A program made the translations under genes and the position numbers. Below are positions 9,305 through 52,915 of a stretch of 64,000 bases of DNA, one piece after another; the stretch's first letter is position 1; every line of letters begins with the position of its first letter. The stretch is from the NCBI RefSeq assembly GCF_030388665.1, contig NZ_CP128846.1:4538501-4602500 (forward strand), in the 5' to 3' direction. The notes under the pieces were generated by a model. The model worked only from the letters and a program-made list of their open reading frames with translations, searched no databases and was not told the origin of the DNA. Source of the stretch: Streptomyces flavofungini (GTDB taxonomy: Bacteria; Actinomycetota; Actinomycetes; Streptomycetales; Streptomycetaceae).

Positions 9305-9305
9305 T

Positions 9306-9821: not shown

Positions 9822-9898
9822 CGCGAAGCACCCGTGAGCTGCACTGGAGCGCCCGCGGGCTGCGTCGGAGCGCCCGCGAGAACTTTTTCCCCCGCACC

Positions 9899-9925
9899 GG
9901 TCACATTCGCCCCGCGGCCTCCGTC
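9899..9925 (+). promoter_or_regulatory. ECF41-type sigma factor promoter
   Basis: GGTCACA (9899-9905) and CGTC (9922-9925) are separated by exactly 16 bp. As I recall it, the published ECF41 consensus is TGTCACA-N16-CGTC, and ECF41 sigma factors typically act on carboxymuconolactone-decarboxylase/AhpD-type genes. The gene downstream (10021) is of that type. No ECF41 sigma gene lies in the window. Confidence 0.65.
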
Positions 9926-10020
9926 AGTGAAGTGAAAGCAAGGCGGCGAGGTACCGGCCGGGCCCAGCCACCGTCACGAAACGCCCGTTCAGCACGCATC
10001 CGAACGTAAAGGACACGATC

Positions 10021-10482: not shown

Positions 10483-10537
10483 GCCCACGCGGCCCGCGTC
10501 CGGCAGGCAGCTACGGCCCACAGCGGCACGGATACGC

Positions 10538-10574
10538 AAGGGGCCCGGCACACGTTCGGTGTGCCGGGCCCCTT
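10538..10574. terminator. Strong bidirectional hairpin
   Basis: A perfect 16-bp stem, AAGGGGCCCGGCACAC (10538-10553) with GTGTGCCGGGCCCCTT (10559-10574), around the loop GTTCG. The stem ends give T-rich 3' edges on both strands. It lies between the converging AhpD-like gene and bpa, so it can end transcription from both sides. Confidence 0.9.
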
Positions 10575-10626
10575 CGCGCTGCGGGCTGTGCCTCACGAGG
10601 GCTGTGCGGTACGAGGCATACGAGGT

Positions 10627-11166: not shown

Positions 11167-11187
11167 GCCGCCATTCTCTCGCACCTG

Positions 11188-11258
11188 TTGTCCACACATC
11201 CGTGGTGCCCCCATCGGAAGATGATCCACCGTGTACGGGGGCGCAGATGTTGTCCACC
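11188..11258. promoter_or_regulatory. Two DnaA-box-like sites upstream of bpa
   Basis: TTGTCCACA (11188-11196) matches the Streptomyces DnaA-box consensus exactly. TTGTCCACC (11250-11258) differs at one base. Both belong to a repeated TGTTGTCCAC 62 bp apart in the bpa upstream region. Similar single boxes occur at 21794, 24635, 29672 and 38239. Confidence 0.45.
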
Positions 11259-38238: not shown

Positions 38239-38376
38239 TGTGGACAACTCCCCGCGAGACGAGCACACCGCCCCGGCACGGCCACCCCGCGCCGTTCGCG
38301 GGGCGCCTCGTGCGCGCAGTCACCTCGTACGCGAAGCCCACGCAGTCACCCCGTACGCGAAGCACGCGCAGTCACC
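38239..38376. repeat. DnaA box and 26-bp direct repeats upstream of the DUF2252 gene
   Basis: TGTGGACAA (38239-38247) is a perfect reverse Streptomyces DnaA box. Two and a half copies of a 26-bp unit beginning CGCAGTCACC (38315, 38341, 38367) follow and run into the stop codon of the next gene. Confidence 0.6.
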
Positions 38377-40144
38377 ACAGCCCGTCGGCCAGCGTCTTCC
38401 AGGGGTCCTTGACGGCGAGCCTGTTCACATGGCCCAGCCACGTCGTCGTCCCGGCCTCGGCCACAGCCACCCCTCGGGACGGGGCGCCGTCGCGGAGGGC
38501 GACCGATGAGAGGTGGTAGGAGCGGACGTCGAGTTCTCCGGGGACGCCCTCGAACGGTACGAAGCGGTCCAGCGGTGCCTTCTTCCGGCCGTCTTCCTGC
38601 CCTGTGGTCCCCGACCCCACCGTCCGGCGGCCCAGGATTCCTCCGTGCATGAGCTCGACGGATCCGCCGGACACCGGCGGGAGCACCCCCGGAGCGTCGG
38701 GGAAGGCGACCTCGACCCGCCCGCCCGCGGTCGTGTACGCGCCGTACGCCTTCTCCGTATGCGGCTGCGACTGCCCCAAGGCGATCAGCGCGGCGCCGAG
38801 AGCGGCGAGGGTGACCAGGCCGCGCAAGGGGTTGCGGGCGCCCGACGCGCGGTACATCCGGGCGAGCCGGTACAGCACGTAGCCGACCGTGCCCGCCAGC
38901 AGGGACAGCCAGCTCAGGGCACCCCACGCCCCGTACGCCATCAGTGAGCCGTGGGCGATGACCAGGAGGTTGAAGACAAGCACCCACGGATACAGCAGGC
39001 AGAAGGCGCCGAAGACGGCCCAGCCGTCGGGGAGCGTGCGCTCGGGGCGTGGGCCGCCGAAGACCGTCCAGTTCACGACCGCGCGGCAGTCGGCCATGCT
39101 CTTGTCCCGCAGGTTGGGGATGTTCACCCAGGCCATGAGGGCGATATAGCCGTCGAGCCGGATGAACGGCAGCAGGTTGAGGATGCCCGTGAACGCGGTC
39201 ATCAGCGCGCACAGGCCCAGCAGTTCGGCGAGTTCGCCGTCGCACAGGGCCGAGCCCGCGGCGAGCAGTCCGGCGGCGGCGAGCTGGCAGATCACTCCGG
39301 CCAGGGCGACAAGGACCCGCTGGTGGCGGGTCCGCAGCCGCCACAGATCGGTCACGTCGCAGAACATGGCGGGGGCGCAGTAGAAGAGCATGGCCCCGAT
39401 ACGGTGGGGCCGGCCGCCGAAGCGGGCCAGGACGGCCCCGTGCGCGAGTTCGTGAACGGCGTTGACGGCGATGACGACGGCGGCGGCGATCAGCCAGTGC
39501 TGCCAGGGCATCGGATGCCAGGCGGCCTTGGCGATCTCGGCCGCGCCGAGGCTCACGGCGACGAGTCCGGCCAGGACCGCGAGCAGACAGCCCGCCGCCA
39601 CCACACGGTTGGCCATCAGACGGGGCAGCAGGCGCCCCGGCGCCAGGAAGGCCGGCCGGTCGAGGACGGTGAACTGCAGGGAGGCGGGCGGCTGGAAGCG
39701 GAACCGGCTCTCTTTGACGGGCGGGGTGTCCGTTCCCACGAGCAGACCGAGCTCGGTGAACTTCCGCAGGGCTGCTTCTACTTGTTCCTGGGCGACACCC
39801 GGTCCGAGGTCATGCCTGACCTGCTGGAGGTCCCGGGTGCCGTCCAGACCGCGCAGCAGGGCGGCGGCCCCGCCGCCCAGGCGGGTGAAGCGGCGGTACC
39901 GCTCGTCCGCGATGGTCCAGGAGCGCTCGCCCTCCTCCGGCGGGAGGAACTCGATGTCCGGCCGCAGCTCGGGCCATGTGGGCACACCGCCCTCCGGTGC
40001 GCCGTCCTTCGGTACGCCGTCCTTCGGTACACCGCCCTCCGGTACGCCGCCTTCCCGTACACCAGCCGCCCCGGCGGACGTACCGACCGCCCCGGCCCCG
40101 GCGGACGTACCGACCGCCACGTCGCCAGATGTGCTGACCCTCAT
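38372..40144 (-). CDS. mpaP: Daptide-type intramembrane metalloprotease (M50 family)
   Basis: Membrane protein of 590 aa related to site-2 proteases. The zinc motif is HELAHGA, and the second metal ligand lies in FIRLDGYIALMAW. About ten helices surround them. An N-terminal cytoplasmic domain (ERYRRFTRLGGGAAALLRGL to FTELGLLVGTD) resembles the PqqD-like winged-helix peptide-binding domain of RiPP proteases. The first 55 residues are GGVPxDG repeats. In daptide clusters the MpaP protease removes the leader, and here the gene is 1 bp after the ABC permease gene. Its cleavage site would be near LDAPG of the precursors. Confidence 0.87.
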   Translation of the reverse strand: MRVSTSGDVAVGTSAGAGAVGTSAGAAGVREGGVPEGGVPKDGVPKDGAPEGGVPTWPELRPDIEFLPPEEGERSWTIADERYRRFTRLGGGAAALLRGLDGTRDLQQVRHDLGPGVAQEQVEAALRKFTELGLLVGTDTPPVKESRFRFQPPASLQFTVLDRPAFLAPGRLLPRLMANRVVAAGCLLAVLAGLVAVSLGAAEIAKAAWHPMPWQHWLIAAAVVIAVNAVHELAHGAVLARFGGRPHRIGAMLFYCAPAMFCDVTDLWRLRTRHQRVLVALAGVICQLAAAGLLAAGSALCDGELAELLGLCALMTAFTGILNLLPFIRLDGYIALMAWVNIPNLRDKSMADCRAVVNWTVFGGPRPERTLPDGWAVFGAFCLLYPWVLVFNLLVIAHGSLMAYGAWGALSWLSLLAGTVGYVLYRLARMYRASGARNPLRGLVTLAALGAALIALGQSQPHTEKAYGAYTTAGGRVEVAFPDAPGVLPPVSGGSVELMHGGILGRRTVGSGTTGQEDGRKKAPLDRFVPFEGVPGELDVRSYHLSSVALRDGAPSRGVAVAEAGTTTWLGHVNRLAVKDPWKTLADGLW

Positions 40145-40145
40145 C

Positions 40146-40868
40146 TCAGAGTGCCTCCGCAGTTCTCTCCCGCCTCAGCGCGCACAGGAGCGCGACGGCG
40201 ACATAGCCGAGCAGTACGGCCACGGCGGCCCATGCCTGCAGGGGCATGGTCAGTTCGGGGTCGTGCAGCAGGGACAGCTGGGCCCCACCGGGCAGGAATC
40301 GCCCGAAAGACGGGGCGGCGACGATCAGGACGGCCTCGATGCCGGACGTGTAGGCCACGATGGCGATGACGGTGGCCACTTGGTTGCGGATCAGATACCC
40401 CAGCGCCACGCCCCAGGGCCCGGCGAGGGCGCTGATCACGACGATCATCGCGTTGAGGCGGATCATGTCACCGGTGTACGTGGGCGCGTGGCCGCCGAGG
40501 ACGGCGACCAGGGTGCTGGTGAGCACGGACAGGACGCCCACGGGGAGGCCCACCAGAAAGGCGACCAGGGCCTTGGCGGCGAGCACCCGCTCCCGGCGGG
40601 GGGTGATGAGATAGGTGCGGGTCCAGGTGCGGTGCCGGTATTCGCCGGTCACCAGGAGAGAGCCCGCGACGGTCGCGAAGAGCAGGCCCGCGAACCCCTG
40701 GCGGACGATCTGCTCGGCCGCGTCGGCGCCGGAGGTGCCCTGGTCGTTGACCGTCTGGATGGTTCCGTAGCCCGCCATCGCGATCAGGCCGAGGCCGATG
40801 GCCACGGTGTACAGCAGGCCGCGTCCTGCCCACAACTTGCGGAACTCGCTTGCCAGTTCGCTGCTCAT
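40146..40868 (-). CDS. ABC transporter permease of the RiPP cluster
   Basis: Membrane permease of 240 aa with six predicted helices (for example GLLYTVAIGLGLIAMAGYG, AAVAVLLGYVAVALLCAL). The cytoplasmic motif LLVTGEYRHRTWTRTYLITP is typical of ABC-2-type bacteriocin-immunity and export permeases. ATGA overlap with the ATPase gene upstream. Expected to export the mature peptide or protect the producer. Confidence 0.85.
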   Translation of the reverse strand: MSSELASEFRKLWAGRGLLYTVAIGLGLIAMAGYGTIQTVNDQGTSGADAAEQIVRQGFAGLLFATVAGSLLVTGEYRHRTWTRTYLITPRRERVLAAKALVAFLVGLPVGVLSVLTSTLVAVLGGHAPTYTGDMIRLNAMIVVISALAGPWGVALGYLIRNQVATVIAIVAYTSGIEAVLIVAAPSFGRFLPGGAQLSLLHDPELTMPLQAWAAVAVLLGYVAVALLCALRRERTAEAL

Positions 40869-41587
40869 ACCGCTGCCGCCTCCCGGTCGAGAACGCTGTG
40901 GAACGCGTCTTCCAGGGACGCTTGGTGCTCATGGGCCATCAGTGCGCTGACGGTGCCCGCGTAACGCACGCGGTGACTGAGGACGACGACGTCGTCGGCG
41001 GTCTTCTCGATCTCGTCCAGGCTGTGGCTCGAGACCAGAACCGCGCCGCCGTCGTCGGCGAAGCCCCGCAGGAAGGCGCGCAGCCAGCGGATGCCGTCGG
41101 GGTCGAGGCCGTTGGCGGGCTCGTCGAGGACCAGGGCACCGGGGGAGCCGATGAGCGCGCAGCCGAGGGAGAGCCGCTGGCGCATGCCCAGCGACAGCGC
41201 GCTGATCTTGCGGTGTGCGGCGTCGGTGAGGTCCACCGTCTCCAGGACGTCGTCCGCCGCCGTGATCGGCATGCCCAGGGAGCGGGCGACCAGGCGGAGC
41301 TGGGCGCGGACGGTGAGGGCGGGGTGCCCGGGTACGTCGGTGGTGGCCGCGCCGACGACCCGGGCGGGCGCGGGAAGGTCCCGGTACGGGACGCCGTTGA
41401 TCAATGCGGTTCCGGCGGTCGGGGCGGTGAGCCCCAGCAGCATGCGGAGGGTGGTCGATTTGCCTGAGCCGTTGCGGCCCACCAGGGCCGTGACGGAGCC
41501 GGCCGGGACTTGGAAGGACACGTCGTCGACGACTCGGCGCGAGCCGTAGACCTTGGTCAGGTCCTTGCAAACAATCGTTGGATCCAC
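40865..41587 (-). CDS. ABC transporter ATPase of the RiPP cluster
   Basis: ATP-binding subunit of 240 aa: Walker A GRNGSGKST, signature LSLGMRQRLSLG, Walker B ALVLDEPANGLD, switch His in SSHSLDE. Pairs with the permease (ATGA overlap). GTG 41587 lies 27 bp after the small membrane protein gene. Confidence 0.93.
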   Translation of the reverse strand: MDPTIVCKDLTKVYGSRRVVDDVSFQVPAGSVTALVGRNGSGKSTTLRMLLGLTAPTAGTALINGVPYRDLPAPARVVGAATTDVPGHPALTVRAQLRLVARSLGMPITAADDVLETVDLTDAAHRKISALSLGMRQRLSLGCALIGSPGALVLDEPANGLDPDGIRWLRAFLRGFADDGGAVLVSSHSLDEIEKTADDVVVLSHRVRYAGTVSALMAHEHQASLEDAFHSVLDREAAAV

Positions 41588-41614
41588 GCGGTTGACTTTC
41601 CGGTCTCGGGCATG

Positions 41615-41773
41615 TCAGCTCCTGCGCGCCAGGAGGCGCCAAATCGCGGCGACCTCCACCACGGCCAGTGCCCACAGGCCGATCTGCAGGGCTCCGTCGC
41701 TGTTCTTGGCGAGGGCCGCTGTGCCCAGCAGCGCGGCACTGAACAGGACGACGTAGGAATAGCGGTTATTCAT
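41615..41773 (-). CDS. Small two-helix membrane protein of the RiPP cluster
   Basis: A 52-residue ORF. It begins MNNRYSYVVLFSAALLGTAA, has a short polar turn (KNSDGALQ), a second helix (IGLWALAVVEVAAIW) and a basic end RLLARRS. It lies between precursor 1 and the ABC ATPase on the same strand. No leader motif and no C-terminal Thr, so it is not a fourth precursor. Possible immunity or transporter accessory protein. The ribosome-binding site is weak, but the codon choice (G/C third bases) supports translation. Confidence 0.65.
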   Translation of the reverse strand: MNNRYSYVVLFSAALLGTAALAKNSDGALQIGLWALAVVEVAAIWRLLARRS

Positions 41774-41859
41774 GGACCAAATCCAATGGTGAGAAACGAC
41801 TTGCTTCTCTTGGAGTCTATGAGGGGCGCCACTCGACGTGCGCGGCGGCCCAGCCGGCC

Positions 41860-41890
41860 CCGGGAGCGGAGTAGTGATACGCGCTCCCGG
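41860..41890. terminator. Hairpin downstream of precursor gene 1
   Basis: CCGGGAGCG (41860-41868) pairs with CGCTCCCGG (41882-41890) across 13 nt. It lies between the stop of precursor 1 (41921) and the small membrane protein, so it could lower transcription or processing of the transport genes relative to the peptide. Confidence 0.6.
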
Positions 41891-41920
41891 ACGCCGACAT
41901 GTGGCCGAGCTGCTCGCCGA

Positions 41921-42070
41921 TCAGGTAATGCTGAGGCCGATGACGAACGCGGCACCACCGGCGGTCGTCACCTGGACGACGTCGTTCCAGCCGGGCGCGT
42001 CCAGAGAGTCGAGCTCCTCGACGGCGAAGTCAGTGGACTCCTGCGGCATTTCGATGGAACCGTGGTTCAT
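41921..42070 (-). CDS. mpaA1: Daptide-type precursor peptide 1
   Basis: A 49-residue ORF. The leader contains TDFAVEELDSLDAPGW; the likely core follows as NDVVQVTTAGGAAFVIG and ends LSIT. The last residue is Thr, the substrate of daptide-type oxidative decarboxylation. No Cys. ATG 42070 has GAAGGAG-type ribosome-binding sequence at 5-10 nt. The leader motif DFAVE..xxL.APG is shared with the precursors at 42229 and 42541. Exact leader boundary is inferred. Confidence 0.85.
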   Translation of the reverse strand: MNHGSIEMPQESTDFAVEELDSLDAPGWNDVVQVTTAGGAAFVIGLSIT

Positions 42071-42093
42071 CTTCCTTCTCCTTCATCAGGTAT

Positions 42094-42207
42094 ACGAGGC
42101 GATGCCTCGTGGATACGGGGTGGTACGAGGTTTTTGTCAGCGGGGGAGCAACCCGTCCGCCGCGCCAGGGGCGGGGCAGTACCCGCAGCGAGTGCGGGCG
42201 CTGCCCC
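42094..42207. promoter_or_regulatory. Two hairpins between precursor genes 1 and 2
   Basis: Stem A: ACGAGGC (42094-42100) with GCCTCGT (42104-42110), 24-40 bp upstream of the precursor 1 start. Stem B: GGGGCAG-TA-CCCGCA (42173-42187) with TGCGGG-CG-CTGCCCC (42193-42207), 13 paired bases with one internal loop, 22 bp after the precursor 2 stop. Stem B looks like a terminator or attenuator, stem A could affect translation of precursor 1. Confidence 0.6.
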
Positions 42208-42228
42208 AGGACCACTGGCCGACCTGGA

Positions 42229-42390
42229 TCAGGTCAGGGCGACGGCGCCGGCGATGCCTCCGGCGATGCCCACGCCCGCGGCGAACCCGTCCATGAAGCC
42301 GGGTGCGGCCAGCTCCTCCATCTGCTCGACGGCGAAGTCACCGGCGGTGGCGAGGGGGGAGGTCAGCTGCTGCTCCATGTCGTTCTGCAT
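42229..42390 (-). CDS. mpaA2: Daptide-type precursor peptide 2
   Basis: A 53-residue ORF. Leader GDFAVEQMEELAAPGF aligns with the other two precursors. The core is Gly/Ala-rich (GFAAGVGIAGGIAGAV) and ends ALT. Apart from the final residue, the presumed core has no Thr, Ser or Cys. AAGGAG lies 5 nt before ATG 42390. Confidence 0.85.
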   Translation of the reverse strand: MQNDMEQQLTSPLATAGDFAVEQMEELAAPGFMDGFAAGVGIAGGIAGAVALT

Positions 42391-42404
42391 GGTTGCTCCT
42401 TCGA

Positions 42405-42526
42405 GACGGCGGGCCGAGGCCCGCGAGGTGCGGTCCGGTTCGGAACGAGCCGGACCGGGGTGGGACGGCGGGCCGAGGCCCGTGTCCCGCGGTCCGGTTC
42501 AGAGAGAAGCAGAGTGAACCGGACCG
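42405..42526. repeat. Duplicated hairpin cassette between precursor genes 2 and 3
   Basis: Two related segments: copy 1 (42405-42457) and copy 2 (42464-42526). Both start GACGGCGGGCCGAGGCCCG, which folds on itself (GCGGGCC/GGCCCG type), then carry a second hairpin: CGGTCCGG/CCGGACCG (42431-42438, 42450-42457) in copy 1 and CGGTCCGGTTCA/TGAACCGGACCG (42490-42501, 42515-42526, perfect 12 bp) in copy 2. They separate two co-oriented precursor genes. Confidence 0.8.
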
Positions 42527-42540
42527 AGTCTGTGGGTGTC

Positions 42541-42708
42541 TCAGGTGAGCGCGATACCGGCGGTCAGACCGCCGCCGATCGCCGCTCCGAGCCACGTCTC
42601 CTTGTCCCAGCCGAGGAAGCCCGGGGCGTCCAGCGCCTCCAGCTCCTCGACGGCGAAGTCCTGGGCGAAACCGGCGTTGCCCGGCAGGGAAAGGGATTCG
42701 GCGTGCAT
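42541..42708 (-). CDS. mpaA3: Daptide-type precursor peptide 3
   Basis: A 55-residue ORF. Leader QDFAVEELEALDAPGF; core LGWDKETWLGAAIGGGLT and C-terminal end AGIALT. The last residue is Thr as in the other two, and all three genes end ACC TGA. AGGAGG lies about 6 nt before ATG 42708, the strongest ribosome-binding site of the three. First gene of the minus-strand half of the cluster. Confidence 0.87.
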   Translation of the reverse strand: MHAESLSLPGNAGFAQDFAVEELEALDAPGFLGWDKETWLGAAIGGGLTAGIALT

Positions 42709-42720
42709 TTCGTTCCTCCT

Positions 42721-42774
42721 GGAGAACGTGGAGAGCGTTGAGAACCTTTAGAACGTTGAGAACGTCGAGAACGT
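42721..42774. repeat. Six tandem 9-bp repeats just upstream of precursor 3
   Basis: Units start every 9 bp from 42721 with consensus TGAGAACGT (on the precursor strand ACGTTCTCA), ending 13 bp before the start codon. They lie in the leader or promoter of the precursor genes. The 9-bp period is not helical. Confidence 0.85.
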
Positions 42775-42865
42775 TTTCGCGGTGCTGCCCACATCTTGCA
42801 CACAGCGAAATCGCTCCGGGAAGCCGATTCCGCTCTCTCTGCGGCCGCAACTGCGTTGTACCGCA

Positions 42866-42895
42866 GGGGCCTTTACGGCTGGGTAAAGAAACCCC
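42866..42895. promoter_or_regulatory. Candidate operator in the central divergent promoter region
   Basis: The 335-bp gap 42709-43043 lies between the two halves of the cluster. CTTTAC (42871-42876) and GTAAAG (42883-42888), 6 bp apart and flanked by GGGG (42866-42869) and CCCC (42892-42895), form an inverted repeat near its middle. It may bind a cluster regulator or form a stem. I found no convincing -35/-10 pair for either side. Confidence 0.4.
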
Positions 42896-43043
42896 TACGG
42901 TCCACCGGACGGAGGCCTGCGGGCGCCGCAGTCAACCCAACTTCCGTACGCCACCGGGCTTATGGGAATTCTCTGCGGTTGTGCCCGCACTGTGGCCAGG
43001 TGTGTACTGATGAGCATCCAATTTCGTCGAGAAAGGCCGGGCC

Positions 43044-44132
43044 GTGGGGGACACAGCAGTAAAGGAATACGCGGAGCTCACGGAAGCCGGTGCCGCCGAG
43101 CAATTGAGCGCGTGGTTCACGGGTGAGGTCGCGGGTGCGCGTCCGGCCGCTCAATCGGTCCTGGTGCAGTCCGGGGGCGACGTCCGGGCCCTGGTGGACG
43201 GGGGCCTGCTCGCTCCCGACGCCTACGTGTTCGCGGCCCCCGCCGATCTGCCCGAGGCCGACGGCCTGCGGACCGTCGAGGTCGAGGGCGGCGTGGAGTA
43301 CTCGGGTGACGAACTGGTCATGTCCGGCAACCTGTACGTACAGGTCTTCGACTACGGCTCACTGCCCTATCTGTCCGTGGCCGGACCGACGGTGGTCCGG
43401 GTGACGGGGCCGGAGGACCACCAGGCGTTCCTCGACGACGCCGACCGCGCCGTGCGCGACGGCGTCTGGTCCGAGGGGCTCGCCCATCCCTCGGTGCAGC
43501 TCGCGGACCTCGCCACCCTCGTCCGTCCGACGAAGGACACCGGCCTCGGCAGGCTCTACGTCACCACCGGCGGCCAGGTCCGCACCGGCGTGGGCGGCCA
43601 GGACCTGGGACATGTCACGGCCGGCGCCGAAGCCCTGCGAGCGGCCCTCGACGCGTGCGCGGGCGATCCGTCACTCGGCTCCGTCGTGCCGGGGGACGTG
43701 CTGCGGTCCGGTGCGGCCGAGCGGCCGTGGCTGGAGCGCTACGCGAAGGCGCTGGAGGTACGCCGCCGACTGGCACCGAAGTACGGGACGGACATACGCG
43801 TCTCGGGCTTCGGCGGCCGGTTCACCGACGAGCTCCCCGCGCATCCCGTCGAGTCCGCCCGCGAGGTGCTGCTCGTGGAGGCCCTCGGCGACTTCCTTGC
43901 GGTCCGCACGGACGACTACCGGCTCTTCAGGCTGGGCAAGGGCTCGGCCCGCCTGCTTGAGGTCTTCTGCGCGCTGGGCGCCGCGAGTTCACCGGACGCG
44001 GCCTCCCGCGCCGCGGCCACGGCCGGCCGCCTGCTCGGCATGACGGACGACCAGGCGCGCGACGCCCACGCCGCCATCACGGCCCGGCTCGACCTCACGG
44101 ACGCGCCCGACGCCACGACGGGCGGTGCCTGA
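43044..44132 (+). CDS. mpaB: Daptide-type RiPP recognition protein
   Basis: Protein of 362 aa without a familiar enzymatic motif. It is placed as MpaB by its position: first gene of the modification operon, divergent from precursor genes, followed by methyltransferase, aminotransferase and oxidase. The segment LARLL-type helical C-terminus (ALGAASSPDAASRAAATAGR) and an N-terminal region with NLYVQVFDYGSLPYLSVAGP may form the peptide-binding RRE. GTG 43044 has GAAAGG upstream. I am less sure of this gene than of its partners. Confidence 0.7.
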   Translation: MGDTAVKEYAELTEAGAAEQLSAWFTGEVAGARPAAQSVLVQSGGDVRALVDGGLLAPDAYVFAAPADLPEADGLRTVEVEGGVEYSGDELVMSGNLYVQVFDYGSLPYLSVAGPTVVRVTGPEDHQAFLDDADRAVRDGVWSEGLAHPSVQLADLATLVRPTKDTGLGRLYVTTGGQVRTGVGGQDLGHVTAGAEALRAALDACAGDPSLGSVVPGDVLRSGAAERPWLERYAKALEVRRRLAPKYGTDIRVSGFGGRFTDELPAHPVESAREVLLVEALGDFLAVRTDDYRLFRLGKGSARLLEVFCALGAASSPDAASRAAATAGRLLGMTDDQARDAHAAITARLDLTDAPDATTGGA

Positions 44133-44134
44133 CC

Positions 44135-44974
44135 ATGCCCGCCACCGCGACCGGCCTACCCGTTCCGCCCGCCCCGCCCCACCTGCCCGACCCGACCGGA
44201 CTCGCCGGCCAGATCGCCCAGACCCTGGGCGACTCCCTGACCGTCGCCGAGCTCTACGGCCCGCTCGGCGGCCCCGTCTACCACGAGCTCACCGCGGACG
44301 ACACCCACGAGATCCGCGACGTACTGGCCCTGCTGCGCGGCGTACCGGGCCCTGTTCTCGAACTCGCCTGCGGCTCGGGCAGGTTGACGCTTCCGCTGCT
44401 GGCCGCCGGGCACCAGGTCACCGGCGTCGACACCTCCGGCAGCCTCCTCGCACAGCTGCGCGACCGGCTGTCCGAGCCCGCCGCCCAGCGCCTCGCCCGG
44501 CGGCTGACCCTGGTCGAGGCCGACATGTGCGCCCTGGATCTGCCCGAACGTTTCGGTGCCGCGCTCCTCGGCACCACCACCATCGGCCTGGTGCCGCCCG
44601 CCGCCCGACCCGACTTCTTCCGCACGGTCCGCGCACACCTCGCTCCCGGCGGCCTGTTCGTGCTCAGCGCCCACACGCCGTCCGCCGAGCACGCCGACCA
44701 GCCCACCGTCCGCCCGGTGGTCACCCCCCAGGGGGTCACCTTCGTCATCGACCAGGCCGAGCCCGGTCTCGGGCAGCGCCAGGTCGCCATCCTGCGGCTG
44801 CCCGCGCAGGGCGGTCCGCTGCTGCTGACGTCCACCGTCAACGTGCCGGACCCCGAGACCCTCGCCGAAGAACTCCGGAGCGCCGGGTTCGACCTCGCCG
44901 AGGTCCGCACGGCCCGCCCCGCCGCCGGTGTCCCCTCCGAACTGAGCATCCTGGTCGCAAGGAGCCCCCGATGA
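44135..44974 (+). CDS. mpaM: Daptide-type SAM-dependent methyltransferase
   Basis: Class I methyltransferase of 279 aa. The SAM motif is VLELACGSGRLTLPLLAAGH, followed by VTGVDTSGSLLAQLR and a post-II region LTLVEADMCALDLPERFGAA. In daptides the enzyme dimethylates the new C-terminal amine. It starts 2 bp after the recognition protein gene and overlaps the aminotransferase by ATGA. Confidence 0.85.
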   Translation: MPATATGLPVPPAPPHLPDPTGLAGQIAQTLGDSLTVAELYGPLGGPVYHELTADDTHEIRDVLALLRGVPGPVLELACGSGRLTLPLLAAGHQVTGVDTSGSLLAQLRDRLSEPAAQRLARRLTLVEADMCALDLPERFGAALLGTTTIGLVPPAARPDFFRTVRAHLAPGGLFVLSAHTPSAEHADQPTVRPVVTPQGVTFVIDQAEPGLGQRQVAILRLPAQGGPLLLTSTVNVPDPETLAEELRSAGFDLAEVRTARPAAGVPSELSILVARSPR

Positions 44975-46275
44975 GCCCCGCAAGCTCCGCAGTCCCCACC
45001 GCCCCCACGGCCCCGGCCACCCCCGGCACCCACTACCCGCTGTGGGAGTCGCTGCTGCCCGCCGCCGAGCAGGGCCGCATCGAGCGTCGGGCGGTCGGCG
45101 CCAAGGGCTCCCGGCTGCGCTTCGCCGACGCCAGCGAGGTCCTGGACGCCACCAGCGGCCTGTGGAACGTCAACATCGGCTACGGCAACGCCGCCATCGC
45201 CGACGCCATCGCCCAGGCCTGCCGCGACGCCTCGTACCTGAACCTCTTCCGCAACTCCCACACCTACGCCCTCCAGGCCGCCCGCGACCTGGTGACCGCG
45301 GCGGGGCCCGCGGCGTATCGACGGGTGGTCTTCTCCACCTCCGGCGGCTCCGCGAACGACCTCGCCATGAAGATCGCCCGCCAGTACGCGGTGCTTCGCG
45401 CGCAGCCCGAACGGCGGCTGGTCGTCGGCCTCAAGGGCAGTTACCACGGGCTGACCTACGGCGCGCACTCGCTGACCGGTGAGGCGCTCGGCCAGCAGAT
45501 GTACGGCGTCGACCTGCGCAACGTACGCCATGTGGACCCCTCCTCACCCGAGGAGCTGGAGCGGTTCATGAAGCGCCACGGTTCCCAGGTGGCCTCGCTG
45601 GTGTGCGAGCCCGTCCTCGGCTCGGGGGTGCACCCGCTGTCCGCCGACTTCGTCGACGCCGTGCTGAAGCTGCGGCGGGAGTACGGCTTCTTGCTGGTCG
45701 CCGACGAGGTGGCCACCGGATTCGGCCGTACGGGGCCGCTGTTCGCCAGCTCCGCGTGGGCCGAGTCACCGGATCTTCTGCTCACCTCCAAGGGGCTGAC
45801 CAACGGCACCTGCGCCGCGTCGGCCGTCCTCGTCTCGCACCCGGTCTCCGAGGCCTTCGAGCAGCACGACGCCGTGCTGATGCACGCCGAGACGCAGGCG
45901 GGCACCCCGGCCTCCTGCGCGGCGATCACGACCACGCTGGAGCAGTTCGCCGAGCTGGACGTCCTCGCGGCGTCCGCGCGCACCGCGGAGCGCCTCGACG
46001 CGCTCCTGGCCGACCTCGCCGAGCGGATCCCGGCCGTGCACAGCACCAGCGGTCTCGGCTGCTTCCGCGCGGTGCACCTGCGCGACGCGGACGGCGACCG
46101 GTTCGACGGGCAGGCCGTACAGGACGTCATCGCGGCGGTACGCGGCCACGGCGCCCTGGTCTATCCCGGCCCCGGCTGCGTCCAGCTCGTCCCCATGCTG
46201 ACCAGCAGCGAACAGGACCTCGACGATCTGGCCCACGCGCTGCTGCGGGGTCTGGCCGTGGCAGGCCGCCGATGA
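44971..46275 (+). CDS. mpaD: Daptide-type class III aminotransferase
   Basis: PLP enzyme of 434 aa. LFRNSHTYALQAARDLV, FSTSGGSANDLAMKIARQYA, VGLKGSYHGLTYGAHSLTGE, LLVADEVATGFGRTGPLFAS (PLP-binding Asp) and LLTSKGLTNGTCAASAVLV (Schiff-base Lys) are all intact. Converts the ketone left by oxidative decarboxylation of the C-terminal Thr to an amine. GGAG 6 nt before ATG 44971. Confidence 0.9.
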   Translation: MSPASSAVPTAPTAPATPGTHYPLWESLLPAAEQGRIERRAVGAKGSRLRFADASEVLDATSGLWNVNIGYGNAAIADAIAQACRDASYLNLFRNSHTYALQAARDLVTAAGPAAYRRVVFSTSGGSANDLAMKIARQYAVLRAQPERRLVVGLKGSYHGLTYGAHSLTGEALGQQMYGVDLRNVRHVDPSSPEELERFMKRHGSQVASLVCEPVLGSGVHPLSADFVDAVLKLRREYGFLLVADEVATGFGRTGPLFASSAWAESPDLLLTSKGLTNGTCAASAVLVSHPVSEAFEQHDAVLMHAETQAGTPASCAAITTTLEQFAELDVLAASARTAERLDALLADLAERIPAVHSTSGLGCFRAVHLRDADGDRFDGQAVQDVIAAVRGHGALVYPGPGCVQLVPMLTSSEQDLDDLAHALLRGLAVAGRR

Positions 46276-47459
46276 CGACCGCCGCCGGCGCCGCGCCCGC
46301 CGCCGGGCCGCCGGCCATCTGGCAGCGGGCGACCCGGGTGCACGTGGGGCAGGGGGCGATCGTCGAGGCGCTGGCGGCGGAGCGGCCCGGCCGCGCGCTG
46401 CTCGTCGTGGACGCCCGGCAGCCCCGACTGCCGGACGTGATCGGCCGGTCGACGCGGGCCACGCACACCGAGCTGGTCAGCGTGGACCCCGCGGACTGCG
46501 ACCTGGAGACCAGCGTGCGCCTGTCCGAGCGGCTCGTCGACGCCGACTGGGTGGTCGCGGCGGGGGGCGGGTCCGTGATGGACGCCGTGGCCCTGGCACG
46601 CCTGTTCACCGCGGCACCGGACACCGTGGCCCGGATCCGGCTCGGCGGCGGGCGTCCCGGTCTGGTGCGCGGACCGGCACCGAGCGAGCTGGGACCGCAC
46701 CCCCGACTGATCGCCGTACCGACCACCGTGGGAACGGCCGCGGAGGTCAGCGCCGCGGCCACCGTGCTGGTCGGCGGCCACCGCAAACTGGTCATGCATC
46801 CCCAACTGGCGGCCGACGTCGCCTGCCTCGACCCGGCCGCGACCCGCACCCTGCCCCCCTCCGCCCTGCGCGAAGGCGCCCTGGAAGCGATCCTGCGCCT
46901 CTGCAACGGCTACCTGCCACGGCCGGGACAGCGGTTCCCGCCGACCGCCGACGCCGAAGCCCGCGACCTGCTGCGCGACCTGGCGCACACCACGGTGTCC
47001 GGCGGCAGCGCCCTGGATGTTGCCGTGCTCAGCGCCCGCACCGTGCTCGGCTTCGCGACCGTCGGCCGGGACTCCTTCGCGGGCAAGGTGTGGTACCTCG
47101 CCAATGAGCTGTCCACCGTGGCCGGCGTGCGCAAGATGTCGGCGACCGCGGCCCTCGTACCCGTTGTGTGGTCCCGGGTCATGCGGGGCGACACCCGCTT
47201 CGGGGACGCGGAACGGCTCCGGGCCGCCTGGGCCGCCTTGCGCGCCGGCCACCCCGAGCTGCCCCTCGACCCGGTCCAGGGTCTGCGGCACCTGAGCAGG
47301 GCCTGGGGCGTCGGCGGCCCGCTGCCCCCGGTCGACCCCGAAGCCCTGGCCGTCCGCGCGGTGCGCGCCTGGGGCGCGGGACTGCCCATGCTCGACGGCT
47401 TCAGCACCCACGACATCGCCGGCCTCTACGCCGATGCCCTCCAGGGAGCCCACCAGTGA
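46272..47459 (+). CDS. mpaC: Daptide-type iron-containing alcohol dehydrogenase (oxidative decarboxylase)
   Basis: Protein of 395 aa of the iron-alcohol-dehydrogenase superfamily: VVAAGGGSVMDAVALARLFT (nucleotide loop), RLIAVPTTVGTAAEVSAAAT. The usual metal histidines in the C-terminal half are not all obvious; it contains SFAGKVWYLANELSTVAG where an HxxxH motif would normally be. In daptides MpaC oxidises the C-terminal Thr side chain, which then decarboxylates. ATGA overlap with the aminotransferase and GTGA with ycaO. Confidence 0.83.
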   Translation: MTTAAGAAPAAGPPAIWQRATRVHVGQGAIVEALAAERPGRALLVVDARQPRLPDVIGRSTRATHTELVSVDPADCDLETSVRLSERLVDADWVVAAGGGSVMDAVALARLFTAAPDTVARIRLGGGRPGLVRGPAPSELGPHPRLIAVPTTVGTAAEVSAAATVLVGGHRKLVMHPQLAADVACLDPAATRTLPPSALREGALEAILRLCNGYLPRPGQRFPPTADAEARDLLRDLAHTTVSGGSALDVAVLSARTVLGFATVGRDSFAGKVWYLANELSTVAGVRKMSATAALVPVVWSRVMRGDTRFGDAERLRAAWAALRAGHPELPLDPVQGLRHLSRAWGVGGPLPPVDPEALAVRAVRAWGAGLPMLDGFSTHDIAGLYADALQGAHQ

Positions 47460-48799
47460 TCGACTTCTCCGCCACGCTCGCCCCCGAGAACGGCCTGGCC
47501 TCCGCGCACGCCATCCGCCCCCCGCGCCGGCCCGACGAACCCCTGTGGCAGGGCCTGGCGGAGCTGCACCGTGACCGCACCGGCGCCGGCGAACGGCAGG
47601 GCGAGGCCCTGAGCCCCACGGTGGTGGGCGCCTACGGCATCTCCCCCTCCGACACCCTGACCCGCGCGGCGGGCGAGGCCGTGGAACGGTTCGCGCTGCT
47701 TCCGGTCCCGGACCCGGGCTCCGGCCCGATCTCCGGCGAGGGCCGTCCCGCCCGCATCGAGGACCTCGGCCCCCAGGCCGCCCTCGACCCCACCGCCCCC
47801 CACGCAGGCCTCGCCGCCGCCGACACCCTGGACCGGCCGCTGCGCTGGTATCCGGCCCAGTGGCTGGACAGCGGCGCTCCCCTCCAGGTGCCTGCCGGGC
47901 TCGTCGACTATCCCGCCCGCGCCGAGGACTCCGACGGCTTCGACCCGTCGCCCTCCGGGGCGGCGTCGGGCGGCACACGGGAGCAGGCGCTGCGCTCGGC
48001 GCTGCTGGAAGTCATCGAGCGGGACGCCTTCTTGACCGCCTGGTTCCACCAACTGCCGCTGCGCCTGCTCGACGCGGACCACTTCGCGTCTCGCGCCCCT
48101 GATCCGGGCTCCCCCGGCGTGCGGCGCTTCCGGCAGGCCCTCCACGCCGCCCGCGCCCTCGGCCTGCATCCCGTCCTCGCCCGCGTCCCCACCCATGTGC
48201 CGGGCGTCGTCTGCACCGTGGGCGTCATCATCGACACCGCCGACGGCCGACCGCTGGCCGCGGTCGGGGCGAGCGCGTCCGACGACCCGGCGACCAGCGC
48301 CGTCAAGGCCCTCCAGGAAGCCCTGCAGATCCGCTCCGCCCTTCGGCTCGTACAGCGCGCGCACCCTGCCGAGCACCCGTCCCGCCGTCCTCCGGGCGAC
48401 CTGGAGCGCGCGCAGTACTTCGCGTCGACCGCGGGCGTACGGGCCGTGGAGCGCTGGGTCGCCACCTTCACCCCGGCAGAAACCGCCGAGACCGCAGAGA
48501 CCGCCGAGGCGATCGCGCCGGACGCGCCGGACGCCGTCACCGTGACCGATCTGCTCGACGCCCTGCACACGCAGGGAGTACGCCCCGTCGTCGTCGACCT
48601 GACCCACCGCCTGCCCGACCCGATCAGGGCCATGGGCTGGCACGCCGTCAAGGTGATCCCCGTCGGCATGCAACCTCTGCGCATGGACGACCGGCTGGAG
48701 TTCACCTGGCACCGGGAGCGTCTTGAGGCCGCGCGAGCACGGTTCGGTTGCGGTCGGCACCCCGCCGCAGCCGACCCCGAACCCCACCCGCTGATCTGA
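47456..48799 (+). CDS. YcaO-domain enzyme in the daptide cluster
   Basis: YcaO protein of 447 aa. The ATP-binding acidic motifs appear in RAAGEAVERFALLPVP, RSALLEVIERDAFLTAWFHQ and KALQEALQIRSALRLVQRA. The tail reads DPEPHPLI, a short PxPxP element of the kind found in azoline-forming YcaO proteins. YcaO enzymes activate backbone amides with ATP to form azolines, thioamides or amidines. No Ocin-ThiF-like partner, TfuA or dehydrogenase is near. GTG 47456 overlaps the oxidase gene by GTGA, so it belongs to the operon. What it does to these Cys-free peptides is unknown. Confidence 0.88.
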   Translation: MIDFSATLAPENGLASAHAIRPPRRPDEPLWQGLAELHRDRTGAGERQGEALSPTVVGAYGISPSDTLTRAAGEAVERFALLPVPDPGSGPISGEGRPARIEDLGPQAALDPTAPHAGLAAADTLDRPLRWYPAQWLDSGAPLQVPAGLVDYPARAEDSDGFDPSPSGAASGGTREQALRSALLEVIERDAFLTAWFHQLPLRLLDADHFASRAPDPGSPGVRRFRQALHAARALGLHPVLARVPTHVPGVVCTVGVIIDTADGRPLAAVGASASDDPATSAVKALQEALQIRSALRLVQRAHPAEHPSRRPPGDLERAQYFASTAGVRAVERWVATFTPAETAETAETAEAIAPDAPDAVTVTDLLDALHTQGVRPVVVDLTHRLPDPIRAMGWHAVKVIPVGMQPLRMDDRLEFTWHRERLEAARARFGCGRHPAAADPEPHPLI

Positions 48800-48831: not shown

Positions 48832-51774
48832 TCAGGCCGCCATGGCACTCCGCAGGGTGCGGGCCAGATCCGTACGCCCGGTGATGCCCAACTTCCGGTA
48901 GGCGTTGGTGAGATGGAACTCCACCGTCCGCTGCGTCACGTACAGCCGACCAGCGATGTCCTCGTTGCTCAGCCCCTGCACGGCGAGTTCGACGACGCGC
49001 CGCTGGCCCGCGGTCAGGGCGCGCGGGCCGACCTGGGAGTAGCGGCGCGGGCGCGCTCCGGTGGCGAGGAGCTTGTGGTACGCCTCCTGCGCCGCCCGCT
49101 GCGCCGAACCCGCCTGGGCCAGGCCGAGGGCCCGGCGCAGAACCTCCCGTGCGGACTCGGTCCGACCGGCCGCGTGCAGGGCGGTGCCCTGGGCGATCAG
49201 GGAGCGGACCAGTTCGAGCCCGCAGCCCGCGTCCTCCAGGAGGAGCACCGATTCCTCAAGGAGTTCCGGGCAGTCGGAGCGGGCATCGGCGAGGGCCGCG
49301 GCCCGCAGGCTCTTGGCGAGGGTGATCGGTGCGCCCCAGCGGCGGGCCAGGACGAGTTCCTCGTCGCTGAGGCGCTGCGCCTCCTGCGGCCGTCCTTCCT
49401 GACGGTGCAGTTGAGCGGCCTGTGACCGCCAGGCGATCCGCCCCGGATTGTCGCCCTCATATCGGGCCAAGAGGCGTCCGCACTGCTCCAGATCGTGCAG
49501 TGCGGCGTGGGGGTGGCCCTCGGCGGCGCGGAGTTGGGCCCGCGCGGCCAGGAAGTGGGGCCAGAGCCAGTTCTCGGGCACGGCGCGCCACCGCGGGTCG
49601 TCGGCGATGCGGCGCGCGTCCTGGGCCCGGCCGCTCTCGACCAGGGGCAGCATCGCGGCGGACGCCACGAGCGCCCCGTAGGGGTGCGGCTCGGGCAGCA
49701 GCCGCAGCGCCTCGTCGGCCGCCGTCAGGGCGCCGGGCAGGTCTCCCTGCTGGAAGCGGATCTGGGACTCCTGCGCGCGCAGCACCGCCCGCATGGCCGG
49801 GGGCCTGCCGCCGAGGTCGAAGGCGCTGATCGTCTCGTTCCAGCGGCTCGCGGATTCAAGCCGGTCGGCGTGGCGGAGCGCCTCGATCGCCACCACGGCG
49901 CACCACAGCGGCTCGCGCTCGGCGTCGAAGTGGTGCAGCGCTCCCTCGGCCGCGGTCATGGCCTCGGCCGCGCTCCCCATCCGCAACGAGGTGTACAGGG
50001 CGTGAGCGGCGAGCAGGGCCCGCTCACCGGGGGTCGTGCCGACCGGCACGCCGACAACCGGCACACCGTCCGACACCGCGTCCGGCACGGCGTCCGGCCG
50101 GCCGGTGAAGGGGCCGCTGCCGACGAGATCCGCCGCCGGTGCCGCCTCGTCGGCGATGCCCGCGGCGATGGCGGCGATGGCTCGCTGCCCGCGGATGCGG
50201 CGGAGCGCCTCGGCGTCGTCCGGTGCCGTCTCGGCGGCCTGTTCGTCGAGCAGTTCCATCGCGCGGTGGGCCTGCCCGCACTGGATGAGCCCGTCGGCGA
50301 GCAGCGGGATGCCGCGGGCGCGCAGGGCCGGATCCGCGGTGAGCTGTGTCCCCTCCTCCAGGTGCCGGACCGACGACATGACATCCGTACGCGACTCCAG
50401 GGCACCCAGTTCGAGCAGCAGAGAGGCCCGTTCGGGAAGGAAGGGGGTCGCCTGTGCCGCTCGGCGCAGATAGGTGATCGCCCGGTCGGTGGCCCCTCGC
50501 GCGGTCGCGTCGGTGGCCGCCGCCCTCAGGACCCCGACCTGCCAGCGTTCCTGCGTCGGCTCGCTGGTCAGGATCAGGTCTGCCACCCTTTCGTGCGGTA
50601 CGCCCTGAGTGAAGAGCAGATGGGCTGCGCGGGCCTGGATGTCGGCGCGTTCGGCGAGCGAGAGGTGGCTGGACAGCGCGGCACGGACGACGGGGTGGAA
50701 GGACCGGTGCGAGCCGTCGGCGCGCAGCAGCCCGGTCCGCTCCAGGAGGGTGAGCGCGGAGGAGACGCTCCGGTGGCTCAGCCCCGTCAGCTGCTGCAGG
50801 AGGCCGACGTCGGCCTCGTCGCCGAGGAGGGCCGTCATGCCCGCCACGACGGTCAGGTCGTCGGGGTAGCGGGCCAGCCATTTCGGCACGATGACCTCCG
50901 TCACCCGGGAAGCGGCCTCGGCCGCTCTCGCGCGCTCGGCGGACAGCGGCGCGATGCCGCCGCGCGTGAACTCGCGGAGCAGGAGGGTCAGGAGTTTCGG
51001 GTTGCCCCCGCTCAGGTGCAGACACAGTCGCACGAAGTCGTCGTCGGCCGGTTCGCCCAGCGCAGCGACCGTCAGCTCCCCCACCGCCGCCGGTGGGAGC
51101 GGCCCGAGATCGATCGCGTGGCACAGCGGGCTCAGCGCGAGTTCCGCCGTCAGCTCCCGATGGGCGGCGGGCACGTCCCGGTCCGTGGCCAGGACGATGA
51201 GGACGGGCGCGTTGTGCAGACGCCGCGCCAGGAAGTCGATCCACTGGGCGGACTGGAGGTCGGCGTGGTGGAAGTCGTCCACGACCATGAGCACGGGAGC
51301 CCGCTCCGCCAGGTGCGTCATCTCCTGGAGCAGCCCTTCGAAGAGGCCGAACAGCCACTCGGTGGACGGTGGTTGACCGGTGAATCCGGCGTGGTCCACC
51401 GCCTTGAACAGCTGGCGGATCACACCGAAGGCGAAGGCCTGCTCCATGGCACCGCACTGCGCCCGCAGGACGGTCATGTCCCGGGCCCGGCCGTGCCGGG
51501 CGAGGCGCTCCAGGAGGGCGGTCCTGCCCGTTCCGGGAGCGCCCTCGATCAGCACGACCCCGGGCCTGCGCGCCTGCACGCCTTCCAGCATGAGCAGCAG
51601 CTCACCGACCTCACCGGCGCGGCCGACGAGCGCGGGGCCGGTGGCGTCGTGATCGGTGTGCGGTTCGTGTGACGCATGCGGGTACTGCGACGCATGCAGG
51701 CTCTGCGACGCAGATGGATCCTGCGAGACTCGTGAGGCGTGTGAGGCGTGTGAGGCGTCCTCGGCTCGATTCAT
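48832..51774 (-). CDS. LAL-type LuxR regulator with AAA ATPase domain
   Basis: Large regulator of 980 aa. The ATPase has Walker A EGAPGTGRTALLERL and Walker B VLMVVDDFHHAD, then a long helical TPR-like region. The C-terminal LuxR helix-turn-helix reads LTAGQRRVVELAVQGLSNED to RTVEFHLTNAYRKLGITGR. The first 40 residues are His/Ser/Gln-rich repeats (HASHAS, SLHASQYPHASH). It ends 33 bp from ycaO, convergent. Size and place suggest the pathway-specific activator of the RiPP cluster. Eight 11-bp repeats lie upstream. Confidence 0.9.
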   Translation of the reverse strand: MNRAEDASHASHASRVSQDPSASQSLHASQYPHASHEPHTDHDATGPALVGRAGEVGELLLMLEGVQARRPGVVLIEGAPGTGRTALLERLARHGRARDMTVLRAQCGAMEQAFAFGVIRQLFKAVDHAGFTGQPPSTEWLFGLFEGLLQEMTHLAERAPVLMVVDDFHHADLQSAQWIDFLARRLHNAPVLIVLATDRDVPAAHRELTAELALSPLCHAIDLGPLPPAAVGELTVAALGEPADDDFVRLCLHLSGGNPKLLTLLLREFTRGGIAPLSAERARAAEAASRVTEVIVPKWLARYPDDLTVVAGMTALLGDEADVGLLQQLTGLSHRSVSSALTLLERTGLLRADGSHRSFHPVVRAALSSHLSLAERADIQARAAHLLFTQGVPHERVADLILTSEPTQERWQVGVLRAAATDATARGATDRAITYLRRAAQATPFLPERASLLLELGALESRTDVMSSVRHLEEGTQLTADPALRARGIPLLADGLIQCGQAHRAMELLDEQAAETAPDDAEALRRIRGQRAIAAIAAGIADEAAPAADLVGSGPFTGRPDAVPDAVSDGVPVVGVPVGTTPGERALLAAHALYTSLRMGSAAEAMTAAEGALHHFDAEREPLWCAVVAIEALRHADRLESASRWNETISAFDLGGRPPAMRAVLRAQESQIRFQQGDLPGALTAADEALRLLPEPHPYGALVASAAMLPLVESGRAQDARRIADDPRWRAVPENWLWPHFLAARAQLRAAEGHPHAALHDLEQCGRLLARYEGDNPGRIAWRSQAAQLHRQEGRPQEAQRLSDEELVLARRWGAPITLAKSLRAAALADARSDCPELLEESVLLLEDAGCGLELVRSLIAQGTALHAAGRTESAREVLRRALGLAQAGSAQRAAQEAYHKLLATGARPRRYSQVGPRALTAGQRRVVELAVQGLSNEDIAGRLYVTQRTVEFHLTNAYRKLGITGRTDLARTLRSAMAA

Positions 51775-51840: not shown

Positions 51841-51939
51841 CGCGTCCGGATCAGGTCCTGTTCAGGTCTGGATCAGGTCTGGATCAGGTCTGGATCAGGT
51901 CTGGATCAGGTCCGGATCAGGCCGGAATCAGATCGGGCA
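51841..51939. repeat. Array of 11-bp direct repeats upstream of the LAL regulator
   Basis: Units start at 51841, 51852, 51863, 51874, 51885, 51896, 51907, 51918 and 51929. Four central units are identical (CAGGTCTGGAT), the flanking ones vary. They lie 67-165 bp upstream of the regulator start and run into the end of the transposase-like gene. The period is one helical turn, placing every unit on the same face. Confidence 0.88.
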
Positions 51940-52915
51940 GGTCCCACTCACCGCCCAGTCGGCCATAGGCGTACGCCGCCGACGTCATCGTCATGTGATG
52001 GTGCCAGCCGGGATAGGACCGGCCGCCGAAGTCGGCGAGGCCGAACCCGCTCTCCAACTCCTCCAGGCTGTGCCGGGCCCGTACGGTCAGCTGTGCCAGA
52101 GCGAGGAGCCGGTCGGCGCGGGCGTGCGTCAGGTTGGTGAGCCACCACCGGGACGAGCCGCGCTCGTGCGGGAGGGCGAGGACCCGGTGGGTGCGGTGGG
52201 CGCCCCCGGCGTGGTGCGGTTCCCGCACGGTGCCGGGGACGGCGAGGAGAAAGCCGCGGCCGCACAGGTCGAGCCCGCGGGCGACGGCCGCGGTGTCGAT
52301 GTCGTCCGGCAGGTCGGCGACGACCGGCAGGGTGCTGAGGCCGGTTGCCCGGACCTGGGAGTCGGCCAGGTCGAGGACCAGCTGCTCGACTGATGAGCCC
52401 GGCACATCATCGGGGATGCGGGCGCGCAGCCGGTGTGCGGGATCGCTGCCCCAGGGGCCGGGAAGCAGCAGCCGCCAGTCGACGGGAACGGCTTCCCCGG
52501 CGGTGGCGAGGAAGCCACCCAGGCCCACCTGGCAGATGGCGTGCCGTCCGGCCGAGGCGACGAAGCTGCTGTGCGCGCCGCACGAGTGCGGGCCGCGCTT
52601 GAGCAGGACGGCACGGTCGACGACGTACGCCCGCGGGCCCATCCGGTGGACGGTCCACCGGGCCAGTTCCGCCCGGACCGGGGCCCAGGCCCAGGGGCTC
52701 GCGTTGATGAACTGGTGCAGGGAGAGGAACGCGGTCGGCGAGTCCGACACGGTGGCCGCGAGTCGGCGCACCGACTTCTTCCCGGGCGTCGCCAGCACGC
52801 TCACCAGGAACGCGTGCGCCCACCGGCGCTGGTCGGCGCGGGGCAGCTCCGCGAAGACGCGTTGCGAGAACGCCGCCACTGCGGACCTGGGGCCGGCGGT
52901 GACGTGCGTGACCAT
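51917..52915 (-). CDS. IS701-type transposase relative, probably inactive or domesticated
   Basis: Protein of 332 aa. The fold is recognisable from RRWAHAFLVSVLATPGKKSV, HAICQVGLGGFLATAG, WRLLLPGPWG and the end GRSYPGWHHHMTMTSAAYAY. Against the usual IS701 pattern (VDDTGFxKKG, VVADAGYG, HFEGRSW) it reads VVDRAVLLKRG, VVADLPDD and DFGGRSY, so catalytic positions look changed. No terminal inverted repeats were seen. ATG 52915 has GGAGAG upstream. Related genes occur in other Streptomyces clusters without moving, so a DNA-binding role is possible. Confidence 0.75.
   Translation of the reverse strand: MVTHVTAGPRSAVAAFSQRVFAELPRADQRRWAHAFLVSVLATPGKKSVRRLAATVSDSPTAFLSLHQFINASPWAWAPVRAELARWTVHRMGPRAYVVDRAVLLKRGPHSCGAHSSFVASAGRHAICQVGLGGFLATAGEAVPVDWRLLLPGPWGSDPAHRLRARIPDDVPGSSVEQLVLDLADSQVRATGLSTLPVVADLPDDIDTAAVARGLDLCGRGFLLAVPGTVREPHHAGGAHRTHRVLALPHERGSSRWWLTNLTHARADRLLALAQLTVRARHSLEELESGFGLADFGGRSYPGWHHHMTMTSAAYAYGRLGGEWDLPDLIPA

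Follow-up and report, generated by a model that had tools for sequence, protein, structure and literature searches.

Gene content of the locus

The window analyzed here, a 64,000-nt stretch of the Streptomyces flavofungini genome (contig NZ_CP128846.1), contains at positions 38372–48799 a complete gene cluster for daptides, a class of ribosomally synthesized and post-translationally modified peptides (RiPPs). It comprises three precursor genes and those for DapB, DapC, DapD, DapM, DapP, an ATP-binding cassette (ABC) exporter and a YcaO enzyme, arranged as two divergent groups, minus-strand and plus-strand, in a 9.36 Mb genome (GC 72.6%). The original prediction had named this set, and all of its genes are present on the strands given there; four of the products, including three of the four class proteins DapB, DapC, DapD and DapM, score above the cut-offs of curated NCBIfam models, with DapC the exception, just below. 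The set is not a chance assembly, since the same arrangement recurs in Streptomyces alboflavus, with 82–98% protein identity over the matched parts. The YcaO gene, also predicted to be part of the cluster, lies in the plus-strand gene run, where successive stop and start codons overlap (ATGA for DapM/DapD and DapD/DapC, GTGA for DapC/YcaO). Gene content, homology and phylogenetic placement of the cluster are established. The reading favored here, with a probability of about 0.88, is that its sequence marks it as a member of the DapY-containing subtype of daptide clusters, the YcaO (DapY) forming a C-terminal imidazoline.

All three precursors have an ELExMEAP-like leader motif and a final Thr, as in the daptide class, and their cores are mostly hydrophobic (Table 1). 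Two features expected from the original prediction are confirmed: Cys is absent from all three, and one core, that of DapA2, has no Ser or Thr except its last residue. There is an internal Thr in DapA1, and both an internal Ser and an internal Thr in DapA3. The C-terminal end is therefore the one site that every precursor shares, and the view that an ordinary azoline pathway is unlikely is shared here.

Table 1. Genes of the daptide cluster, with positions in the window (RBS, ribosome binding site; RRE, RiPP recognition element; SAM, S-adenosylmethionine; PLP, pyridoxal phosphate; Fe-ADH, iron-dependent alcohol dehydrogenase).
Feature	Position	Strand	Evidence and remarks
DapP, M50-type intramembrane protease, leader removal (predicted)	38372..40144	-	HELAH motif; NCBIfam daptide_HExxH 326.2 bits (cut-off 300)
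DapT2, ABC-2 permease of exporter	40146..40868	-	Pfam ABC2_membrane_4 above cut-off
DapT1, ABC ATPase of exporter	40865..41587	-	Pfam ABC_tran
Hydrophobic 52-aa product of the frame between dapA3 and dapT1	41615..41773	-	No clear RBS
DapA3 precursor, 49 aa, core GWNDVVQVTTAGGAAFVIGLSIT, C-terminal Ile-Thr	41921..42070	-	RBS-like GAAGGAGAAGG upstream; leader motif ELDSLDAP; conserved in S. alboflavus (L019)
DapA2 precursor, 53 aa, core GFMDGFAAGVGIAGGIAGAVALT, C-terminal Leu-Thr	42229..42390	-	GAAGGAG upstream; leader motif QMEELAAP; conserved in L019
DapA1 precursor, 55 aa, core GFLGWDKETWLGAAIGGGLTAGIALT, C-terminal Leu-Thr	42541..42708	-	CAGGAGGAA upstream; leader motif ELEALDAP; conserved in L019
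DapB, RiPP recognition protein (RRE), presents precursor to DapC (predicted)	43044..44132	+	NCBIfam daptide_RRE 250.4 bits (cut-off 150)
DapM, SAM N-methyltransferase	44135..44974	+	NCBIfam daptide_MTase 224.4 bits (cut-off 175)
DapD, class-III PLP aminotransferase	44971..46275	+	NCBIfam daptide_amino 565.2 bits (cut-off 450)
DapC, Fe-ADH-like oxidative decarboxylase (predicted)	46272..47459	+	PF00465; NCBIfam daptide_DH 285.5 bits
DapY, YcaO, imidazoline-forming (predicted)	47456..48799	+	PF02624 133.5 bits (cut-off 25.7); C-terminus PEPHPLI

Assignment of the YcaO to the DapY family

Daptide clusters with a YcaO are found elsewhere. A profile built from seven relatives retrieved 51 loci of the family in named genomes, and 46 of these also have homologues of dapC, dapD and dapP (among the 46, DapB was matched in 33 and DapM in 42). 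Two of the remaining five, L025 and L058, are close to contig ends and have only some of these genes, and three (L037, L066 and L069) are without dapC, dapD and dapP. A FastTree reconstruction with local support values was made from 89 rows, 60 labeled as DapY and 29 other YcaOs, including the second YcaO of the genome. In it, 58 of the 60 DapY-labeled rows form one group (support 94) set against the 29 others; those outside it are L066 and L069. The window DapY and that of Thermobifida fusca (L027) fall together within a 31-row set (support 99); inside it, six rows (support 96) unite the window enzyme with S. alboflavus and two further lineages, each of these two present twice. T. fusca DapY is the characterized enzyme compared by sequence; that of Streptomyces azureus was compared by its description in PMC12670281. 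By tree placement and gene context, the window YcaO is a member of the DapY family.

One of the incomplete loci, L037 (Micromonospora sp. NBRC 107566, 10001–11227), encodes a YcaO that ends in PHPLP and belongs to the DapY group, yet none of dapB, dapC, dapD, dapM and dapP was matched within 10 kb of it; the enzyme may be an orphan that acts on a different peptide.

The only other YcaO match in the window's own genome is outside the DapY group in the tree. It is found on contig C2 (160.7 kb) at about 91–94 kb (L018, 8153–10538), directly after a TfuA-like gene and followed by a methyltransferase-like frame (recognized by eye only) and then a glycerol-3-phosphate dehydrogenase gene, and represents a separate YcaO system. 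The idea of the window YcaO acting with a distant partner was rejected, dapY being in the gene run and the other YcaO being half of a TfuA pair on another contig.

Proposed pathway and alternatives

The daptide class was defined in 2023, with a YcaO among its secondary enzymes and YcaO-encoding subgroups named in the discussion (Ren et al., 2023; PMC10036551). Work on T. fusca and S. azureus demonstrated the role of DapY in vitro and in vivo in 2025 (Dommaraju et al., 2025; PMC12670281; preprint, PMC12338566). The substrate of DapY is the mono-methylated C-terminal diamine, which the enzyme cyclizes with the penultimate carbonyl to give a C-terminal 3,4-dimethylimidazoline. Reconstituted T. 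fusca and S. azureus DapY gave the product abbreviated Miz without DapM and the dimethylated one, Diz, with it, the structures being assigned by nuclear magnetic resonance and Marfey analysis (PMC12670281). DapM and DapY compete for the mono-methylated intermediate, which is thus a branch point, and one of the four S. azureus peptides (peptide 3) remains Dmp, the open tertiary amine (PMC12670281). T. fusca DapY gave no product unless the diaminopropane had been installed; the substrates used were leader-bearing or fused behind a carrier, and a free core N-terminus is therefore not needed for the reaction (PMC12670281). It was also suggested there that the YcaO C-terminus tunes catalysis. Novelty of a YcaO role in daptides, as originally claimed, is accordingly rejected, since both its occurrence (PMC10036551) and its reaction (PMC12670281) are in print.

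If the window enzymes act as in T. fusca and S. azureus, DapB would bind the leader at its ELEALDAP-type motif and offer the C-terminal Thr to DapC, which would convert it by oxidative decarboxylation to an aminoacetone; DapD would transaminate this to 1,2-diaminopropane, and DapM would add one N-methyl group. DapY, an ATP-dependent YcaO, would then activate the penultimate amide (Leu, Leu or Ile) and close it onto the methylamine to give Diz, while peptides escaping DapY would receive a second methyl and end as Dmp. Cleavage by DapP is predicted after the leader Ala-Pro, with export through DapT1T2. Assuming that cleavage site, the computed [M+H]+ values of the Diz products are 2526.39 (A1), 1974.06 (A2) and 2227.22 (A3), and those of the Dmp products 2558.41, 2006.09 and 2259.25; the site, and the Diz or Dmp fate of each of the three peptides, are predictions. 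The amidine that had been guessed at from the sequence comes close to this, imidazolines being cyclic amidines: the guess is near the published imidazoline of T. fusca and S. azureus, while the suggestion that it would be new for daptides does not stand (PMC12670281).

Several points weigh against imidazoline formation here. DapC scores slightly under its model's cut-off (285.5 against 300), the support of 94 for the split between DapY and other YcaOs is below the level starred in the tree, with long branches among the others, and identity between the window and T. fusca DapY sequences reaches only about 42% in the best segment. Diz is also not assured for every peptide, since one of the four S. 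azureus peptides stays Dmp. Finally, the window enzyme ends in PHPLI and that of T. fusca in PHPLP, a PxPxP motif. The window DapY does have a PxPxP string, PEPHP, two residues earlier; the same register as in T. fusca reads PHPLI.

Among the 59 non-window DapY rows, 25 end in PHPLI, 25 in PHPLP and nine otherwise (some of these truncated). The PHPLP rows, including T. fusca, make up exactly one 25-row tree set (support 88), which suggests, judged by eye alone, that PHPLI is the older ending; the PHPLI rows, from Streptomyces, Amycolatopsis, Lentzea, Arthrobacter and others, are outside it. We know of no assayed DapY of the PHPLI type, so that imidazoline formation in the window has to be inferred across this difference. 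Should the C-terminal residue tune catalysis, PHPLI enzymes may end at another terminal group, such as an unmethylated imidazoline, or choose precursors differently, which we consider rather unlikely.

Three other outcomes were weighed. DapY could make a conventional oxazoline from the internal Ser and Thr residues of DapA1 and DapA3 in place of a C-terminal ring. Besides those residues and the PEPHP string, the closest NCBIfam model for the YcaO, that of the azole-forming SagD family (TIGR03604), points this way, though the score is far under its cut-off (137 against 219.25 bits). DapA2, however, offers no internal Ser, Thr or Cys, no E1-like partner or azoline dehydrogenase was recognized among the cluster proteins scanned (NCBIfam, Pfam), and the T. 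fusca enzyme is unproductive until the diaminopropane is in place (PMC12670281), all of which makes an oxazoline very improbable. There is an equally small chance that all three peptides end as Dmp, with DapY inactive or minor. The contest of DapM and DapY for the same intermediate, with S. azureus peptide 3 as Dmp, would allow it, as would the terminal Ile in place of the Pro of T. fusca DapY. Nevertheless, dapY is an open frame overlapping dapC, and the S. alboflavus copy, 84–90% identical over the matched parts, is also open; residues invariant across the seven aligned DapY sequences, GEAVER and E..ERD for example, are kept in the window enzyme. Least probable of all is another group, namely an unmethylated imidazoline, a thioamide or an amidine macrocycle closed onto the freed N-terminus: the published enzyme comparable by sequence is of the other, PHPLP kind, but it shares its tree group and cluster genes with the window DapY, no TfuA or sulfur-delivery protein was recognized among the cluster proteins scanned (NCBIfam, Pfam) and the TfuA-YcaO pair of this genome lies on a different contig, which speaks against the thioamide originally considered, and the leader-bearing or carrier-fused substrates of PMC12670281 lend no support to a ring joining both termini. 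The imidazoline remains the preferred reading.

Neighboring genes, distribution and known systems

An alignment with T. fusca DapC covers the length of the window DapC, and both have EG.LEA.. where the Fe-ADH family has an Asp/His metal-binding motif; DapC thus apparently lacks the usual metal ligands. The Pfam M50 model scores below its cut-off on DapP (17.1 against 27.2). An N-terminal RRE in DapP is expected from the literature, the class having been defined with an RRE-fused protease. DapB gave no Pfam match, and the top NCBIfam match of DapT1, a lantibiotic-protection ATPase model, is below its cut-off. The 52-aa hydrophobic open reading frame (ORF) had no match in a Pfam scan. By tblastn it is 98% identical to the S. 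alboflavus product, with six synonymous and two non-synonymous codon changes in the piece compared, and had no match in the remaining related loci compared; it is possibly a helper in export or self-protection (immunity). Just past dapY and convergent with it is a gene for a large AAA ATPase/LuxR-type protein (48832–51774, minus strand), a candidate regulator; the DNA flanking the S. alboflavus cluster matches it at about 90% identity. It is adjoined by a transposase-like DDE superfamily endonuclease gene (51917–52915, minus strand; PF13546).

Distribution was surveyed in several overlapping draws of genomes, each count including the window's own. DapY was matched in 8 of 297 genomes of the window's family (E <= 1e-20) and in 9 of 392 of the genus (E <= 1e-40); a daptide aminotransferase above cut-off was found in 25 of 394 family genomes and 3 of 396 across the phylum. 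Of 19 regions around aminotransferase matches, 13 have the daptide set with no DapY in the stretch, absence being judged from about 20 kb around dapD. Ten of these 13 genomes (handles up to G296) are presumed to be within the 297-genome search. DapY is present in three of the regions (L129, L133 and L146; the L146 copy is cut and L133 repeats L024), and in L142, L143 and L144 the queries used found no daptide gene besides the aminotransferase.

Precursors, sought by leader-motif pattern and final Thr, were compared by their tails. In 52 DapY-containing clusters, the window included, 39 of 92 distinct cores end in Leu-Thr and 12 in Ala-Thr; in the 13 without DapY the numbers are three and 17 of 32. 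Left out of these counts were same-contig or same-genome duplicates (L020, L026, L133 and L158–L162; also L065, a twin of L059), loci that were cut or had no precursor found (L017, L025, L037, L058, L063, L064 and L069), L066 and L018 (no daptide genes) and L142–L144 (aminotransferase match only). Within the Streptomycetaceae, leaving out precursors with a Ser-Pro leader end, Leu-Thr accounts for 32 of 54 cores with DapY and one of 29 without. A DapD tree was made from 61 rows, 48 with and 13 without DapY (L059 and L067 also left out; L027 and L057 dropped, their dapD being cut). Its precursor search differed slightly from the one above, overlooking one or more cores and taking in two frames that lie within dapC. 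The tree gave two independent pairs on well-supported branches and six on all branches. On those two, Leu-Thr runs counter to expectation more often than in line with it (averages of 1.1 and 0.3), and Ala-Thr follows the expected course, opposite to DapY (1.5 vs 0.1). Neither tail counts nor DapD tree established a sequence rule for ring or open amine, and none is claimed, because the clusters are related, independent contrasts are too few and those for Leu-Thr lean the opposite way.

Two smaller patterns appeared among these loci. L029, L032, L038 and L146 have several Leu-Thr precursors and one ending in Val-Ala-Thr with a Ser-Pro leader end, located between dapD and dapC, away from the others; it is a candidate for a different end product. 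In five Amycolatopsis and Lentzea loci (L033, L036, L039, L040 and L056) a single divergent precursor was found, with dapY directly after dapC.

The T. fusca cluster compared here (tfDap, L027) is from strain NBRC 14071, which we take to be the same type strain as DSM 43792 of the published work. DapA, DapC, DapD, DapP, DapT1T2 and DapY are common to both clusters, as are DapB and DapM according to PMC12670281, and four of the five L027 precursors end in Leu-Thr. A lanthipeptide-dehydratase/luciferase-like pair for D-Ala is specific to tfDap (PMC12670281), with none recognized among the window proteins scanned, and dapY is downstream of dapP there, about 2.8 kb apart, whereas in the window it directly follows dapC. 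The S. azureus cluster (saDap, azuritides), likened by its description in PMC12670281, has the core daptide genes and a YcaO, no lanthipeptide synthetase, and four precursors to the window's three. The published S. azureus masses matched no precursor of the fetched loci (L156 and L157, checked by eye, included). The mpa cluster of Microbacterium paraoxydans has the core pathway to the dimethylated diamine in common; it is from the group encoding only primary modifying enzymes, so without a YcaO (Ren et al., 2023; PMC10036551).

Among named genomes, the closest cluster found belongs to S. alboflavus NRRL B-2373 (L019). Besides the genes and their arrangement, it has the 52-aa hydrophobic ORF and the neighboring regulator region in common with the window. 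The S. alboflavus DapY (8975–11047) is 690 aa long. A repeat-rich stretch of about 250 residues, which the window DapY lacks, is inserted in frame into one of its loops, past residue 84 or so; the insert has a 9-bp repeat and many Asp-Pro and Asn-Pro. No report of a product was found in the daptide papers searched, the search not being aimed at this species.

Since the role of DapY is already published, the window adds little as a new enzyme role. With an ending unlike that of the assayed T. fusca enzyme, its YcaO can serve to test the generality of imidazoline formation, and the cluster to ask what decides between ring and open tertiary amine, a question left by PMC12670281. The cluster is one more, well-conserved case of a subtype already described, that of daptide clusters with DapY, and does not amount to a system of a new kind.

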